A stretch of DNA of 64,000 nucleotides from Acidimicrobiia bacterium (GTDB lineage Bacteria > Actinomycetota > Acidimicrobiia > Spongiisociales > ZC4RG35), in contig JANQOU010000006.1 of the NCBI GenBank assembly GCA_028285585.1, forward strand, positions 434,001-498,000. Direction: 5' to 3'. Shown one piece after another: positions 1 to 6,290 of this stretch. The position numbers and the translations under genes were made by a program. Position 1 is the first letter of the stretch, and the number at the start of each line of letters is the position of its first letter. Below the pieces are notes generated by a model that saw nothing but the letters and a program-made list of their open reading frames with translations, was not told the DNA's origin and made no database searches.

Positions 1-431
1 CGACACGAAGAGGGAGTCGACGACCTCACGCGTCGATCTGACTACGCCGACCTCAGCAGAGGAGGTCATGGGCCTCTTGGAAGGCACCAGCGCGGGTTAC
101 GTTGAACTGATTACCAAAGATCAGATCGGGGACCGCATCTACACAACGGGCTATAGGACCAGTAGCGGGAAAGCTCTCGCCGGCGGCGTACTCCGACGCA
201 GTTGCAAAGACATTCGCCAATATCGCCGACGAACTGACGCGAACCGACGGGGACCCAAACACCACGACATCGGAAGTCGTTGCGCTAAAAGGGATTGTCA
301 GCGAGATCGACCCCTCCACTCCTCGGATCGTGGCGGTGGTGGTTGCTGATGTGCATAACACCTCCAAAGCGCCATTCGTTCGCGACACCAAGATGGACAC
401 CGACCCGCCTTGGCCGTTGATCGACAAATGA
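1..431 (+). pseudogene. 5'-truncated gene remnant with an apparent frameshift
   Basis: Two reading frames with codon use typical of the neighbourhood follow each other. Frame 2 is open from the window edge to about position 180 and includes a peptide beginning MGLLEGTSAGYVELI. Frame 3 is open from about 112 to the TGA at 429-431 and ends TDPPWPLIDK. Neither frame covers the whole stretch, so a single-base shift around 150-185 is the simplest reading. The frame-3 stop overlaps the ATG of the next gene as ATGA, which supports frame 3 being the true 3' end. The antisense strand is also open across 53-490 but has no context. I do not recognise the product. A sequencing error could equally explain the shift. 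Confidence 0.4.
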
Positions 432-1162
432 ACGAAACGCCAACCTCGGGCAACGCGAAAGCTAATGCGCAGCATGCAGAGAACTCCCAATGTGAGATTG
501 CGGTAGTGAACGATTCCATCATCGAGGGCCTGGCCTTGGTCGACCTGATGGCGGACGACGGCCTAACTGCATGTGCTCCGGAACGTCCGATCGATCTGAA
601 CGCGCTTGGTCACTCCGTATTGGTCATCACGAGTTCGCTACTGCTTGGCTCGCTTCTCGAGGGTTCCTCTAACACTTCAAGGCACCGATCCGATCAGGTA
701 GTCATTTGTCTATCCCCGAACACAACGCCCGATGAAACGTGTCGTCTGCTGAGCGCCGGCGCCACTTCGGTCCTGCCTCGCTCGCTATCGGCAGACTTGT
801 TCAAGGCATCGCTCCGAATACTCCTGAGTGGCCTCTTCATTGTCCCTAACTCAGTAACTCAGCTTGCAGACCTGAGCCCAGTTCCCAGCCATCTCACGAG
901 CGATCAGCAAGTTCTCTTTCGAAAGCTGGTCGAGTATCCAATGGTATCGGATCTCTCGACAGTGCTGGGGTACTCACGAAGCGCGGTTAATCGTCGGCTA
1001 CGAACCCTCTACAAATCGCTAGGCGTCACGTGCAGAGAGGAAGCCTTGATACTTGCAGGCCAACTCGGCATCGGGCGTCGCTTGGACGCAGAGATCCGTA
1101 GGAGCAGCTTGATCTGGGCTGACCAGAGGCCCACCGCCGCTGAGCCATACCGGCACTCATGA
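428..1162 (+). CDS. Atypical response-regulator-like protein with C-terminal HTH
   Basis: About 244 residues. The ATG at 428 is preferred over the in-frame TTG at 410 because it overlaps the upstream stop as ATGA. Residues ~25-140 have the alternating hydrophobic pattern of a receiver domain, but where a phosphoacceptor Asp is expected (the VLVI segment) there is Thr-Ser. Residues ~165-215 form a LuxR/NarL-like helix-turn-helix: a conserved-looking segment with YSRSAVNRRLRTLYKSLGV. The family normally regulates transcription by binding palindromic operators. Without the acidic pocket, phosphorylation control is doubtful. No kinase is adjacent. Assignment rests on pattern only. Confidence 0.5.
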   Translation: MNETPTSGNAKANAQHAENSQCEIAVVNDSIIEGLALVDLMADDGLTACAPERPIDLNALGHSVLVITSSLLLGSLLEGSSNTSRHRSDQVVICLSPNTTPDETCRLLSAGATSVLPRSLSADLFKASLRILLSGLFIVPNSVTQLADLSPVPSHLTSDQQVLFRKLVEYPMVSDLSTVLGYSRSAVNRRLRTLYKSLGVTCREEALILAGQLGIGRRLDAEIRRSSLIWADQRPTAAEPYRHS

Positions 1163-1265: not shown

Positions 1266-1796
1266 GTGAGCGTCAACGAGTGTGGTACCGGCCCGGTCAA
1301 CGACAGTGATACTGCTACGCATCGGCAGGAGCCGTTCGAGAACTTCTTCCGCCGAGAGTACAGGTCGGTGTTGGCGATAGCCACCGCTCTTACTCGAAAA
1401 CGAACCGATGCCGAGGAACTGACGATGGAAGCATTCGAATCCGCACTCCGGCTCTGGGATAGGAACGACTTGAGAAACCCGAGCGCCTGGGTTCGCACCG
1501 TCGTTTCCAACAAGGCTGTTTCTCGCTACCGGCGAGCAGTCACCGAGGCTAAGGCACTAGTCCAGATCGCAGCTAGCGGGGACAAGCAGTCGACCATCGA
1601 CACTGACTCCATAGAGGTCTGGACCGCAGTCCGTAGGCTGCCCGCGAGACAAGCTCAGGCAATCGTGCTGTTTCATGTTGCGGGCTACAGCCGCCTTGAG
1701 ATCGCCAACTTGCTTGGTGTAGGGGAGGAAACGGTCAAGACTCACCTGGACCGTGGACGAGCACGCTTGGCAAAGGCTCTCGAGGTCCCGGAATGA
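1266..1796 (+). CDS. ECF-type RNA polymerase sigma factor
   Basis: 176 residues, the usual ECF length. Region 2 lies at ~20-90, with the FFRREYRSVLAIATALTRK helix and a DAEELTMEAF segment matching the core-binding and -10 recognition region. Region 4 lies at ~120-170, with LPARQAQAIVLFHVAGYS followed by the HTH around LLGVGEETVKTHLDRGRARL. The start is GTG at 1266 with only a weak ribosome binding site. The stop overlaps the start of the kelch gene (ATGA at 1793-1796), so the two are co-translated. ECF genes are commonly coupled to a membrane protein that restrains them, and the next product is membrane-anchored. Target promoters cannot be read from this window. Confidence 0.85.
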   Translation: MSVNECGTGPVNDSDTATHRQEPFENFFRREYRSVLAIATALTRKRTDAEELTMEAFESALRLWDRNDLRNPSAWVRTVVSNKAVSRYRRAVTEAKALVQIAASGDKQSTIDTDSIEVWTAVRRLPARQAQAIVLFHVAGYSRLEIANLLGVGEETVKTHLDRGRARLAKALEVPE

Positions 1797-3058
1797 AGAG
1801 AACCGTGGAGGTACTCGAACAGGCAGCGGCCGATCTCCGTAGTGAGGTAGACCGCAGGGCAATCCCATCCCCTCCGACTCGCCATCAAGCCAAAGAGAAG
1901 GCCATATCACCTCAACGTCCGTGGTTGGCTGGACTGATTGCCTTTGCGCTGGTTCTGGGGCTAGGCGGCCTAACGGCGTTGCGGATTCTCGACCGTAGCA
2001 GTCCACGATCTGAGCAAGAGATCCTCGGTCCCACGCCGACGCCGGTCCCAAACGGTACAAAACCTTCACTCACCAGCGACCGTGCTCCTGCTGTTGTTCC
2101 GTTCGATTCAGGGCCACTCGCACCTCGTGATGGCCATTCGGTAGTCTGGACCGGCTCAGAGGTCATTGTGTGGGGCGGCGCAACCGCGCTGGCTGGTGAA
2201 ACCCTGGCCGATGGCGCAGCTTATGACCCGGTAGAGGAAACCTGGCGTCCGATCGCACCGGCTCCATTGGCAGCCCGACGAGACCACCACGTCGCATGGA
2301 CAGGCCAGGAAATGCTGGTGGTCGGAGGAATCGGCCACCTTGACGGGGCGGCGTATAACCCAGCCTCGGACACCTGGCGACAGATACCAGATACTTCAGT
2401 CCGGACTACAAGCCCTGCAACGAACACAAGCCAGTACACGAGCAGCGTCTGGACGGGTGAGAGGCTGGTGCTGTGGAATGTCGTCGATGATCAACTGGCT
2501 GCCTACTCCAGCCGCACCGACGAGTGGGAACTTTTGCCTGCGGTCGGGTTGGAGCTCGCAGCCGGAGTATTGCGATGGAATGGACACCACCTCTATATCT
2601 TCGGCGTGGAAGGGTTCCTGCCTGAAATCGACCAGCTGAAACTGGCGCGTCTTGATTCAGACGCTTGGAGTCTGGTTTCTACCCTCCAGATCGTTCACCC
2701 TGTTCCGATGCTGTCGGCATGGATCGGCGACAGGTTTGTTGCCTGGAACGATGAGGGAGTCGCCTTCGAAAGCGACCCAACCGATCCTATATGGATCAGA
2801 AGCGAACCCATTCCGATCAGTGGTTGTGAGGGGGTCGGCGATCCCTTAGAACTGGTTGACTCTGCCTTGATCTTTGGGTGGTGTGGGTCCGATGCGTACT
2901 ACGACACTGCCGTCGCCAGATGGCAAGCGGTGGAACTCCCAGGGCTCGGATCAGGGGACCATTCCGTCTGGACAGGGAGTGAGGTGATTCACTGGGGCGA
3001 TGCAACGGATGCAGGCGGCGTGGGATCCTGGCGCCTCGTATTCAGCGAATCGAATTAG
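1793..3058 (+). CDS. Membrane-anchored kelch-repeat protein, possible anti-sigma partner
   Basis: 421 residues. A short cytoplasmic part (1-42) precedes one membrane helix at ~43-65 (WLAGLIAFALVLGLGGLTAL) and a Pro/Thr-rich linker. The remaining ~310 residues hold kelch-type blades, with repeated segments such as GHSVVWTGSEVIVWGG, HHVAWTGQEMLVVGG and HSVWTGSEVIHWGD, consistent with an extracytoplasmic beta-propeller. Translational coupling to the ECF sigma factor suggests the N-terminal tail could bind it, but I see no canonical zinc anti-sigma motif (HxxxCxxC). A role as sensor/anti-sigma is inference; a cell-surface sugar or protein binder is the alternative. Confidence 0.7.
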   Translation: MKRTVEVLEQAAADLRSEVDRRAIPSPPTRHQAKEKAISPQRPWLAGLIAFALVLGLGGLTALRILDRSSPRSEQEILGPTPTPVPNGTKPSLTSDRAPAVVPFDSGPLAPRDGHSVVWTGSEVIVWGGATALAGETLADGAAYDPVEETWRPIAPAPLAARRDHHVAWTGQEMLVVGGIGHLDGAAYNPASDTWRQIPDTSVRTTSPATNTSQYTSSVWTGERLVLWNVVDDQLAAYSSRTDEWELLPAVGLELAAGVLRWNGHHLYIFGVEGFLPEIDQLKLARLDSDAWSLVSTLQIVHPVPMLSAWIGDRFVAWNDEGVAFESDPTDPIWIRSEPIPISGCEGVGDPLELVDSALIFGWCGSDAYYDTAVARWQAVELPGLGSGDHSVWTGSEVIHWGDATDAGGVGSWRLVFSESN

Positions 3059-3148: not shown

Positions 3149-3727
3149 TCAACCGAAGACTGCCTCTCCTTGAAGCAAAAACGAGGCTTGGATGGTTACG
3201 AGGACAATGGCTGCCGGCGCTGTCGCCCTCTCGAAACGACGGCCCAGTGACCATTCGGCAAGAGTCTCATCCCATCGTGTCGATAGCGACGAACTCAGGC
3301 GTCCAAAGGGAACGAGACCTCGAGCAAGACCAAAGGCCGTCCCGATCACAAGGGCGTCGACTGGTGCGCCAACGAGAACAATTACAACCGCTGCGAAGTA
3401 TGGAAGAGTCCCCGTCATGAACGTGCGGCACCCGGTTCCCATTTCAAGACCGAATTGGAATGAGGCTATTCCGAGCCTTCGTCTGAAGATCTCAACCGGG
3501 ACCTGCCTCGAGGCCGACGGCAGCCAAAGCTTGAGACCTCCATAGTCACGTGCGACCACGATGAGGGCAGCTGCAGTCGCCACCATCAGTTTCTGATGAT
3601 CCGACGCCGAAGCTGCGAGCCCGCTTAGGAGAAACAGGCCAAGCGCTACAAGAACGCCGCCTGCCAGTGATCCAAGCATGAACGCGAATGCAGGAAACGC
3701 TGTCCTTCCCGATCCCGAAGTGACCAC
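3149..3727 (-). CDS. Multi-pass membrane protein, likely 3' part of a gene split by an in-frame stop
   Basis: 192 residues from a GTG at 3727 with no clear ribosome binding site. Hydrophobic segments lie near 10-38, 45-60, 105-130 and 165-185. Seven codons upstream in the same frame is the TGA that ends the small membrane ORF at 3746-3898, and the sequence around that stop reads as one continuous Ser/Thr/Gly-rich loop. The two are therefore probably one ~250-residue protein broken by a nonsense codon, or joined by readthrough. It is the last gene of the MauA-like operon. Mau clusters encode an additional membrane protein (MauF); similarity to that is only positional. Family not recognised. 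Confidence 0.55.
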   Translation of the reverse strand: MVTSGSGRTAFPAFAFMLGSLAGGVLVALGLFLLSGLAASASDHQKLMVATAAALIVVARDYGGLKLWLPSASRQVPVEIFRRRLGIASFQFGLEMGTGCRTFMTGTLPYFAAVVIVLVGAPVDALVIGTAFGLARGLVPFGRLSSSLSTRWDETLAEWSLGRRFERATAPAAIVLVTIQASFLLQGEAVFG

Positions 3728-3745
3728 CCCGGCGCTATTGGCAGT

Positions 3746-3898
3746 TCATGTCGACCCCGAGAGAGATACACCAGCCAACCAACCAATCCCCGCTAGGGCC
3801 ACCGAACCACCGGCCATAGCCCCTACCAGAAGGAGTAGCCAGCCCGCAATCAGAAGCGGCACGACCGGTGGAACCGCGCTCCTTTCGACGAGCACCAT
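3746..3898 (-). CDS. Small hydrophobic ORF (50 aa), likely N-terminal part of the split membrane protein
   Basis: The ATG at 3898-3896 shares one base with the MauA-like stop (TGATG), the coupling style of this operon. It encodes about 50 residues, with a charged start MVLVERS, then one or two hydrophobic helices containing PLLIAGWLLLLVGAMAGG, then SLSGST and TGA at 3748-3746. The same frame reopens immediately and continues into the 192-residue membrane ORF. It is too short for most gene callers. It is either a genuine small membrane peptide or, more likely, the 5' exon-like piece of a gene interrupted by TGA. Confidence 0.5.
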   Translation of the reverse strand: MVLVERSAVPPVVPLLIAGWLLLLVGAMAGGSVALAGIGWLAGVSLSGST

Positions 3899-4455
3899 CA
3901 GCAGGGGCTGCAGCCGCTAGTCCCCCACGACATGACGTATCGACAGATGCTCTTCTCACTGGAACCGAATGGCCACGTCCCTTTGTAGCCGTCGTGGCAC
4001 TTCCAGCGACGATCCTTGAAGCATGGGGATCCGACGCAGCAAACCCCTACCTTCCAGTACCAGCCGTCGTATTGCCCAGGGCACTGGTTGGGGCGGTAGT
4101 CGTGCGTGTGTCCGGTTTTGTGAGGATGGGCATCGTGATCGTGCCAGCTTCCAGCACACGTGCCGGACAGAATCCGGTTTGTCGGGCACCCGGCACATGA
4201 ATCTGTCGAGTAGTTGTACCCACAGTGATTCAACCCTGTGTTGGGTTTCATCTGCCATGGACTGGAAGAGTGCGCAAAAGCCGCTCGTTCGAATGATCCA
4301 AAAGCTGCAACGGCTGCCGTAATTAGCAGACCCTTTATGAATGCCCGCCGCGATGGTTTGTGAAACTCCGTCCCGGACCAGCCGGTAGACCGCAAGATCG
4401 GTATGTCCGAGAGTTCGAGGCCTTGCGATATGGCGTCGCGCGCCGTCTCAGTCAT
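3898..4455 (-). CDS. Tat-exported 12-cysteine protein resembling methylamine dehydrogenase light chain (MauA)
   Basis: 185 residues. A long N-region ends in a twin-arginine motif, SRRAFIK at 35-41, then a hydrophobic stretch and AFA at 59-61, so export of a folded protein is likely. The mature part has 12 Cys (78, 87, 90, 100, 125, 139, 140, 145, 153, 171, 182, 185), including a CC pair followed by C, and a His-rich loop at 105-118. MADH light chains have a long Tat leader, 12 Cys forming six disulfides, a CC motif and two Trp that form the TTQ cofactor. Trp is present at 104, 132, 134, 151, 161 and 177, but the exact TTQ pair cannot be assigned by eye. The neighbours are MauD- and MauE-like. 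Whether it is an amine dehydrogenase subunit is uncertain. Confidence 0.6.
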   Translation of the reverse strand: MTETARDAISQGLELSDIPILRSTGWSGTEFHKPSRRAFIKGLLITAAVAAFGSFERAAFAHSSSPWQMKPNTGLNHCGYNYSTDSCAGCPTNRILSGTCAGSWHDHDAHPHKTGHTHDYRPNQCPGQYDGWYWKVGVCCVGSPCFKDRRWKCHDGYKGTWPFGSSEKSICRYVMSWGTSGCSPC

Positions 4456-4982
4456 TTGTTTTCTCTCCTTTCGGACCTAATTGTCTCCAGGATGGCTCTA
4501 TCAACAAACCCCTCCAGCTCATCTCGGCTTCCGATAGGACCCTCGCCGACCAGATGCCCACTCGCCGCGACCACCGCCGCATAGGGTGTAGCCAGAACAC
4601 CGATCTGCCCAAGCCCGAGGGGAGCTTCAAGCGGAACGCTCCTCGCACTGTTCGAACCGAGATTCAGTGGGCCGACGCCAGGATCCTTGTCGGCGTCGAA
4701 TATCAACACGACTTCGAGTTCATCCGGCAGGGACTCAAACTTGTCGACCAGTTCCGACAGCCTGGCATCACACGCGCGACACCCTGCTTGGACAAACAGC
4801 ACCAACGCGGCGACATGGGGATTCGTAGGGACCAAAGCTTCCCGTATGGCATCGAACATGATGCCTCCGCCAAACCCGCCGCCGTCCGCAAATGACACGC
4901 GACGGGCCAAACCAAACATAGCGAGAGCGAGGAACAGTATGGCTACCCAAGCCAGCAACACCATCGTCTCGAAGAAGCTCAC
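4452..4982 (-). CDS. MauD-like membrane-anchored thioredoxin-fold protein
   Basis: 176 residues. One N-terminal membrane helix (~5-26) precedes a linker and a thioredoxin-like domain with the redox motif GCRACD (CxxC) near residues 68-73 and a later cis-Pro-like ATPYAAVV segment. MauD is needed in methylotrophs for disulfide formation and stability of the MADH light chain. The gene overlaps both neighbours by 4 bp (ATGA), placing it between the MauE-like gene and the 12-Cys gene. Its likely job is oxidising or isomerising disulfides of that exported protein. TlpA/ResA-type thioredoxins are the alternative family. Confidence 0.65.
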   Translation of the reverse strand: MSFFETMVLLAWVAILFLALAMFGLARRVSFADGGGFGGGIMFDAIREALVPTNPHVAALVLFVQAGCRACDARLSELVDKFESLPDELEVVLIFDADKDPGVGPLNLGSNSARSVPLEAPLGLGQIGVLATPYAAVVAASGHLVGEGPIGSRDELEGFVDRAILETIRSERRENK

Positions 4983-5536
4983 GTGTGGACCTTCGAACTG
5001 TTCGTCGCCATCGCATCGGGAAGCAGCATGAGAAGGATCACCATGGCGGCCACGGCGAGCATCAGAATAAGAATCTCGCCGACCGCGATCGATGCAAACT
5101 CAATCGGAACTCGATAGATCCCAGATGCGGAGACACTCGCAGCAATCAGCGCACGCGCGAACGTCCACGCGTTCGCTGGTGTTTCAGAGTCGCCACATCC
5201 ACAAGGTGCTGAAGAACGGGTGCGAACCAACACAGCTATGTAGGCACCAAATCCCATGAATAGAACCGTCGCGGTCAGATGCGTCCACACCCAGATCGCG
5301 TCCGTGCCTCCTATTCCGGCGACCAGAAGGAGGCCGGCCAGGCCCACGACGATCTCTGCAAGGACAACCCCGATAGCTATGGGTCTGACGTGTCCCCCCG
5401 CTAGCACGCCCTGCGCGTGCAAGAGGCTTCGGAACTCGCCGAAACGTCGTGCGTGGGTTAGTCCCACCCAGAACAGGAGACCAAAAGGAATGAAGCCGAC
5501 GACTACGCCGAGGGTGCCCATCGCGTCATGCTGCAT
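4979..5536 (-). CDS. MauE/DoxX-like integral membrane protein
   Basis: 185 residues with four or five hydrophobic helices (about 8-25, 50-75, 82-105, 125-140, 150-175). Between helices 3 and 4 is a PCGCGD motif, the paired-cysteine signature of the MauE family, whose members act with MauD in MADH light chain maturation. It begins within the last 11 bp of the preceding gene and overlaps the MauD-like gene by 4 bp. I infer that it passes electrons or oxidising equivalents across the membrane to the MauD-like protein. DoxX-type quinone-linked proteins are related and cannot be excluded. Confidence 0.65.
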   Translation of the reverse strand: MQHDAMGTLGVVVGFIPFGLLFWVGLTHARRFGEFRSLLHAQGVLAGGHVRPIAIGVVLAEIVVGLAGLLLVAGIGGTDAIWVWTHLTATVLFMGFGAYIAVLVRTRSSAPCGCGDSETPANAWTFARALIAASVSASGIYRVPIEFASIAVGEILILMLAVAAMVILLMLLPDAMATNSSKVHT

Positions 5537-6290
5537 CGGGATAAGTCCATGAGAAACGGGCCTTCGCTAGCCAAGCCGCCAGAGCTGAATCCCCGACGCT
5601 GACCGGCTCTACGACTGTCGTGCTCCTAGAGTCCTGCAGCACGAATTGCGGATGGTCTTCGGTCTCAAGAGGCATCCGAAAAAGCTGACCGCCACGCACT
5701 GCAGTGCCTTGATGACGAGCAGCCGGGAATGGCGAGAGAGACCGCTCACCATAGATCAAGACACGTCCCAGGTCAGGAACGGTCAGTCTCACTTCGGGTC
5801 CTTCGTAAAGGCTAACCAGTGTGCTTTGAATGGGCTGACACACGACACCGTCCTCTATCTCATTCACCTGAAAGGAACCGAACCACTCCAGAACCAGGTC
5901 CAATTGGGTCCCGTACGAAAACGTGCGCACACAGTGGTTCTCGCCTTCCCATCCCACGATATTGAACATCTCGGGTTGGACGGTCCCATCAGGGCCACGT
6001 ACGAAGTATTCGATACCTTCTTGATCCTGGACGGGAAGTGCAGAGCCAGCCCACAGACGTCCACCCATGTAGCTGTACTCGTGTGTGACGCTGAATCCTG
6101 TCGCAATCGTCTCATTGGTAGCCAGGCCCATGGCGTATTCGCGCTCGTCGGATACCAGAAGAGTGAACAAACCACCAGGTTCTGGAAGCCACACATAGGA
6201 CGATTCCGAAACAAATGACGTGGGTCGTTTTCCAGGAAACTCGCCATGGATGCGACCACCATCGATGCTCGTGTAGCTGGCCTGATGCAT
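5526..6290 (-). CDS. Uncharacterised 254-aa protein, first gene of the MauA-like operon
   Basis: The ATG at 6290 is preceded by a good ribosome binding site (GAGGAG about 10 bases upstream). The sequence is rich in beta-type residues with no membrane helix and no signal peptide. Recurrent segments such as GGLFTLLVSDEREYAMG and GRVLIYGERSLSPFP give a beta-sheet or propeller impression, but no repeat is clear enough to name. It overlaps the MauE-like gene by 11 bp and is thus the promoter-proximal member of the operon. In classical mau clusters this position would hold the heavy chain MauB, a ~400-residue exported beta-propeller; this protein is too short and lacks an export signal. Function unknown. 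Confidence 0.6.
   Translation of the reverse strand: MHQASYTSIDGGRIHGEFPGKRPTSFVSESSYVWLPEPGGLFTLLVSDEREYAMGLATNETIATGFSVTHEYSYMGGRLWAGSALPVQDQEGIEYFVRGPDGTVQPEMFNIVGWEGENHCVRTFSYGTQLDLVLEWFGSFQVNEIEDGVVCQPIQSTLVSLYEGPEVRLTVPDLGRVLIYGERSLSPFPAARHQGTAVRGGQLFRMPLETEDHPQFVLQDSRSTTVVEPVSVGDSALAAWLAKARFSWTYPDAA

Follow-up and report, generated by a model that had tools for sequence, protein, structure and literature searches.

The operon at positions 6290-3149 (- strand) of the analyzed DNA, a stretch of 64,000 nucleotides called the window below, probably represented a MauF-MauE-MauD cassette for the oxidative maturation of a Tat-exported client that had 12 Cys and belonged to a new family, and the MauF of this cassette was a predicted selenoprotein. 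Our confidence was slightly higher for the more general conclusion. Namely, MauF very likely constituted a new selenoprotein family, and the Mau-type cassettes of the Acidimicrobiia would use its selenocysteine (Sec) to fold several Cys-rich exported clients, with three such cassettes existing in parallel in this genome (G000, 2.6 Mb). The gene content and order, the homology to MauF, the TGA at the redox Cys, the Sec genes and the conserved hairpins of the TGA-type genes could be read directly from the sequence.

Organization of the operon

The operon consisted of five genes encoding p254, MauE, a thioredoxin at the MauD position, the Tat-exported 12-Cys client and MauF. Successive genes overlapped by 11, 4, 4 and 1 bp, and p254 was part of the operon as its first gene. 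To the left of it were regulatory genes, encoding a kelch propeller with a membrane anchor, an ECF sigma factor and a LuxR-type regulator. The features were as follows.

5526..6290, - strand: p254, soluble, no TM segment; conserved partner of the window-type cassette
4979..5536, - strand: MauE-like membrane protein, 4 TM segments, PCGC (PF07291)
4452..4982, - strand: membrane-anchored thioredoxin-like protein at the MauD position, CRAC (hhalign to the Acidimicrobiia MauD family)
3898..4455, - strand: Tat-exported 12-Cys client of a new family (homology to the G103 client)
3149..3898, - strand: MauF, complete frame including the in-frame TGA (hhalign, frame and start reading, alignment)
3746..3748, - strand: in-frame TGA, predicted to be read as Sec (aligned with the Cys of MauF WSPCG)
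1793..3058, + strand: kelch beta-propeller protein, anchored by a single TM segment at the N-terminus (Kelch models), tail to tail with MauF
1266..1796, + strand: ECF sigma factor, SigE-like (Sigma70_r2/r4), overlapping the kelch gene
410..1162, + strand: LuxR/UhpA-like regulator, a paralog of the regulator beside a mau-like cluster on contig C8

The first-pass annotation had described three overlapping genes at this locus, for an exported 12-Cys protein, a CxxC membrane thioredoxin and a PCGC membrane protein. The coordinates and strand of all three were correct and so was their overlap; what had been overlooked was MauF with its in-frame TGA, as well as the nearby Sec genes. The ORF at 3727-3149 was only the C-terminal part of MauF, whose frame really started at 3898. 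The absence of MauB, MauG and amicyanin from the window was upheld.

The PCGC membrane protein (5536-4979) had four TM segments as described and matched the MauE model PF07291 at 1e-15 (58.6 bits, cut-off 27). The CxxC thioredoxin (4982-4452) indeed contained a CRAC motif and was anchored by a single TM segment at its N-terminus. It scored 15.9 bits (E 0.007) against the MauD equivalog TIGR02661, far under the cut-off of 188.6, because the protein was too diverged for this model. It was related to an Acidimicrobiia MauD family (hhalign 1.7e-6), which in turn matched MauD (9e-10), and homologs were present in two other Acidimicrobiia genomes, G103 and G698. No match to p254 was found in Pfam, NCBIfam or PDB, and its identification as MauJ or MauB was ruled out by hhalign. 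Homologs of p254 adjoined MauD in G103 and G698, with scores exceeding those of all Cys-fixed shuffles.

Among the genes to the left of the operon, the kelch protein was a possible partner or sensor of the cassette. A kelch gene also neighbored the cassette loci of G698 and G099, and a sigma factor gene adjoined those of G103 and G099, but pairs of this kind may occur frequently in such genomes. The regulator at 410..1162 matched that of the C8 cluster with an hhalign probability of 99.5% and 41% identity over 182 columns.

MauF and its in-frame TGA

The profile of the Acidimicrobiia MauF family matched MauF of Paracoccus denitrificans across the membrane domain (hhalign 98.4%, E 1e-14, 187 columns), and the window copy matched the family at 7e-11; no model in Pfam or NCBIfam matched MauF. 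Since the membrane protein encoded in the window was MauF, the gene set was MauF-MauE-MauD plus a client. The start at 3898 overlapped the client stop codon (TGATG), and the frame read through the TGA at 3748-3746. This codon shared an alignment column, one of five invariant ones, with the Cys of WSPCG, the corresponding motif in Paracoccus MauF. The genome encoded two more MauF genes, on contigs C8 and C3, and both had the same TGA, as ANWSP-TGA-G and ATWSP-TGA-G. In G103 and G698, the MauF genes had a TGA at the window-type position. Among the fetched Acidimicrobiia MauF loci, 83-85 distinct genes had WSP-TGA-G and 14-21 had WSP-TGC/TGT-G.

Two hairpins were located directly 3' of the TGA. 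All 6/6 of their pairs were present in 78/80 and 73/83 of the TGA genes, compared with 1/19 and 0/21 of the Cys genes, and the folding z was -1.50 versus -0.04. A CTC to TTC change (Leu to Phe) was accompanied by a synonymous GAG to GAA change of the facing Glu codon in 13/14 TGA genes; none of the Cys-type MauF genes showed this coupling.

Genes for Sec decoding were present as well. SelA and SelB, both above curated cut-offs, were encoded 3.3 kb before the window start. Since the genome-wide count of tRNA-Sec at E <= 0.001 was apparently inflated by other tRNAs, the tRNA was checked by ARAGORN and Rfam, which identified a tRNA-Sec with the anticodon UCA. Across genomes, SelB was present in 14/15 of those with a Sec-type MauF, the lone exception being a genome that was 72% complete, and it was absent from 4/9 of those with a Cys-type MauF. 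A general change of the genetic code was ruled out as the explanation because TGA functioned as a normal stop codon in the rest of the window.

Alternatively, the MauF frame might be split into two genes, with the TGA terminating a short TM peptide and coupled re-initiation yielding a separate protein from the downstream part. Many of the genes did have an ATG three codons past the TGA with a purine-rich stretch ahead of it. However, the same Met was conserved in the Cys-type genes too, and G698 had no ATG, GTG or TTG just past the TGA. Furthermore, the TGA was exchanged with TGC or TGT at precisely this codon, and the hairpins and the compensatory synonymous change were restricted to the TGA genes. 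Thus, this arrangement was improbable, although it fared best among the alternatives, and we favored Sec insertion into MauF. For the window copy, Sec was less certain than for the other two copies in the genome, since the WSPUG motif was lost (SLSGST-U-TANSAG) and the hairpin after the TGA was weak and not clearly SECIS-like.

The exported 12-Cys client

The client gene (4455-3898) encoded 185 aa with exactly 12 Cys, every one in the mature part, and a long leader of the RR type (KPSRRAFIKG) that scored above the TIGR01409 cut-off, in agreement with the initial description of an exported 12-Cys protein with a long Tat leader. Apart from this leader, the client matched nothing in Pfam, NCBIfam or PDB. 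An AlphaFold model of the client alone reached a pLDDT of 34.6 and was not used. A His/Asp-rich loop at 4149-4099 (- strand), SWHDHDAHPHKTGHTHD, was a candidate metal site that the homologs in G103 and G698 had not retained.

The MauA-like label originally given to this protein implied a system similar to methylamine dehydrogenase (MADH), in which the client would be a diverged MauA with a TTQ-type cofactor. The shared maturation genes, the Tat leader and the 12 Cys were in line with this idea, as was the true MauA homolog in the paralogous C8 cassette. However, the MauA light-chain model PF02975 did not match the client, hhalign gave no signal, and 700 of 1000 Cys-fixed shuffles scored as well as the client against the MADH light-chain profile. 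By the same profile, the MauA homologs of Thermomicrobium and of contig C8 outscored all of their own Cys-preserving shuffles. The tryptophans of the TTQ pair were not conserved in register, and neither MauB in the operon nor MauG in the genome was found. By these tests, the client was not recognizable as MauA, and a MADH-like system was slightly less probable still than a split MauF gene. Given the tryptophans out of register and a genome without a CCP_MauG gene, a TTQ-like cofactor on the client was unlikely.

Judged by sequence comparison, the client was instead the founder of a small new family, with members in two other Acidimicrobiia that also encoded homologs of p254 and MauD. The family had the motif C[AS]G[ST]WH..RPN.C..YDGW.W..KCHDG..SICRY. 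The clients of the window and G103 were identical at 39/104 positions, with a Smith-Waterman score of 150 compared with 75 for the best shuffle. For the mature part of the G698 client, 51/2000 shuffles reached the score against the window client, which was marginal, and 4/2000 reached that against the G103 client, which was clearer. The membership of this more distant protein rested on synteny too. A survey of gene neighborhoods, proposed in the first-pass annotation, did reveal conserved partners, as the client, MauD and p254 all had homologs that recurred in the same gene order in G103, which belongs to the same order of bacteria, and in G698, from another family of the class. This recurrence placed the gene set beyond chance. 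MauE was not found at the client loci of G103 and G698. The client was clearly present in only 2/138 genomes of the order, and the window-type cassette was thus a rare subtype. Close relatives were also searched for in GTDB contigs, viral contigs and plasmids and none were found; matches in Halomarina, G059 and G065 were spurious frames.

Related cassettes in the genome and in the class

MauF was found in 87/395 genomes of the class. The common type of cassette had the order MauE, Cys-rich Tat protein, MauD and MauF; this Tat protein contained 20-30 Cys and frequently carried an FG-GAP-like or CWB2 tail. A GTDB search recovered 236 relatives of the 20-30-Cys protein, and among the best 80 of these 236, MauE adjoined 79, MauD 75 and MauF 57. 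The cassette's GTDB relatives were nearly all labeled as Acidimicrobiia or actinobacterial MAGs, which made G000 itself very probably acidimicrobial. Such proteins with FG-GAP-like, CWB2 or other repeat tails were observed at L036-L063, L170 and other loci, and no Pfam model covered their Cys domain. For an AlphaFold model of these clients (pLDDT 74.7), the ten best PDB hits were MADH or AADH light chains with E about 1, so that the weak likeness of the modeled 20-30-Cys domain to MADH light chains was only suggestive. In many cassettes, MauF was followed by a conserved protein of ~155 aa (e.g., L044 8683-9150 and L170 8157-8624). Two additional orphan Tat clients, containing 16 and 19 Cys, were seen at L046 1200-1622 and L243 4597-4977, in MauD-client-MauF cassettes where both MauF genes had the TGA.

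In the genome under study, the contig C3 cassette was of the common type. The contig C8 cluster (L056, 5774-10341) contained a regulator, MauE, MauD (35% identical to Paracoccus MauD), a MauA homolog that kept both tryptophans, MauF with an in-frame TGA and a MauB-like lipoprotein, a propeller recognized by a weak match. The MauG model PF03150 (CCP_MauG) had no match in the genome and did match in the E. coli control; a TTQ in the C8 MauA homolog would therefore need another route. The MauB model PF06433 had no match in the genome, but the control genomes gave none either. A dispersed ordinary mau system was not the explanation for the window operon, since C8 held a separate, self-contained MauE-MauD-MauA-MauF set together with its MauB-like gene. 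The three cassettes each had a different Cys-rich client, and the same machinery appeared to serve different clients. Outside the class, the Thermomicrobium roseum plasmid NC_011961 (L085) carried three MauA-like genes, each adjoining a propeller-like protein of ~400 aa, which suggests that MADH-like enzymes also form a family in bacteria other than Proteobacteria.

Proposed mechanism and comparison with known systems

According to the established view, MauD and MauE are required for correctly disulfide-bonded MauA (van der Palen 1997, as cited in PMC7794033). In the model proposed here, Tat would export the client, and outside the membrane its disulfides would be formed or isomerized by the membrane-anchored MauD. 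MauE and MauF may act as membrane relays that recharge MauD, and the MauF selenol might speed up thiol exchange or protect the relay against over-oxidation. Accessory or regulatory roles were assigned tentatively to p254 and the sigma/kelch pair. The Mau-type gene set thus fits the earlier idea of an oxidative-folding system with new partners for an uncharacterized disulfide-rich exported protein. Sec at the conserved Cys would point to this MauF residue as a redox center and offer an experimental handle through 75Se and UGA mutants. If the model is true, selenium would take part in extracytoplasmic disulfide formation of bacteria, MauF genes with a called start past the TGA would have their annotation corrected, and the clients would define families missing from the profile libraries.

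Cys-rich products next to mauE were described before. A 2020 survey (PMC7794033) reported candidate RiPPs (the decRiPPter clusters) in Streptomyces without a mau cluster, where precursors containing 8 or more Cys adjoined mauE and, in one case, mauD. An analogous RiPP-like cluster, with a precursor peptide modified by MauE and MauD, was the least probable reading of the window operon, as its client was a Tat protein of 185 aa, none of the operon genes was recognized as a RiPP modifying enzyme, and the related clients were large multi-domain surface proteins. The operon was similar to the Streptomyces clusters in that mauE/mauD adjoined a Cys-rich product in a genome without the mau cluster; it differed by MauF, the predicted Sec and the Tat client, and MauF and selenium were not mentioned in the available part of that survey.

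The mauFBEDA genes of Paracoccus denitrificans shared with the window MauF, MauE and a thioredoxin at the MauD position beside a Tat protein with 12 Cys in the mature part. Unlike that system, the window lacked MauB, MauG and amicyanin, its client was not MauA, its MauF had a TGA where WSPCG has Cys, and p254 and the sigma/kelch partners were new. No relevant paper linking MauF with selenocysteine was found among open-access papers, and MauF was not among the 119 prokaryotic selenoprotein families of a 2026 review (PMC13188914), in addition to having no matching Pfam or NCBIfam model. At the same time, it had the features of the known prokaryotic selenoproteins, namely a TGA at a redox Cys, Cys-containing homologs, a downstream hairpin, which was weak in the window copy, and SelA, SelB and tRNA-Sec in the genome.
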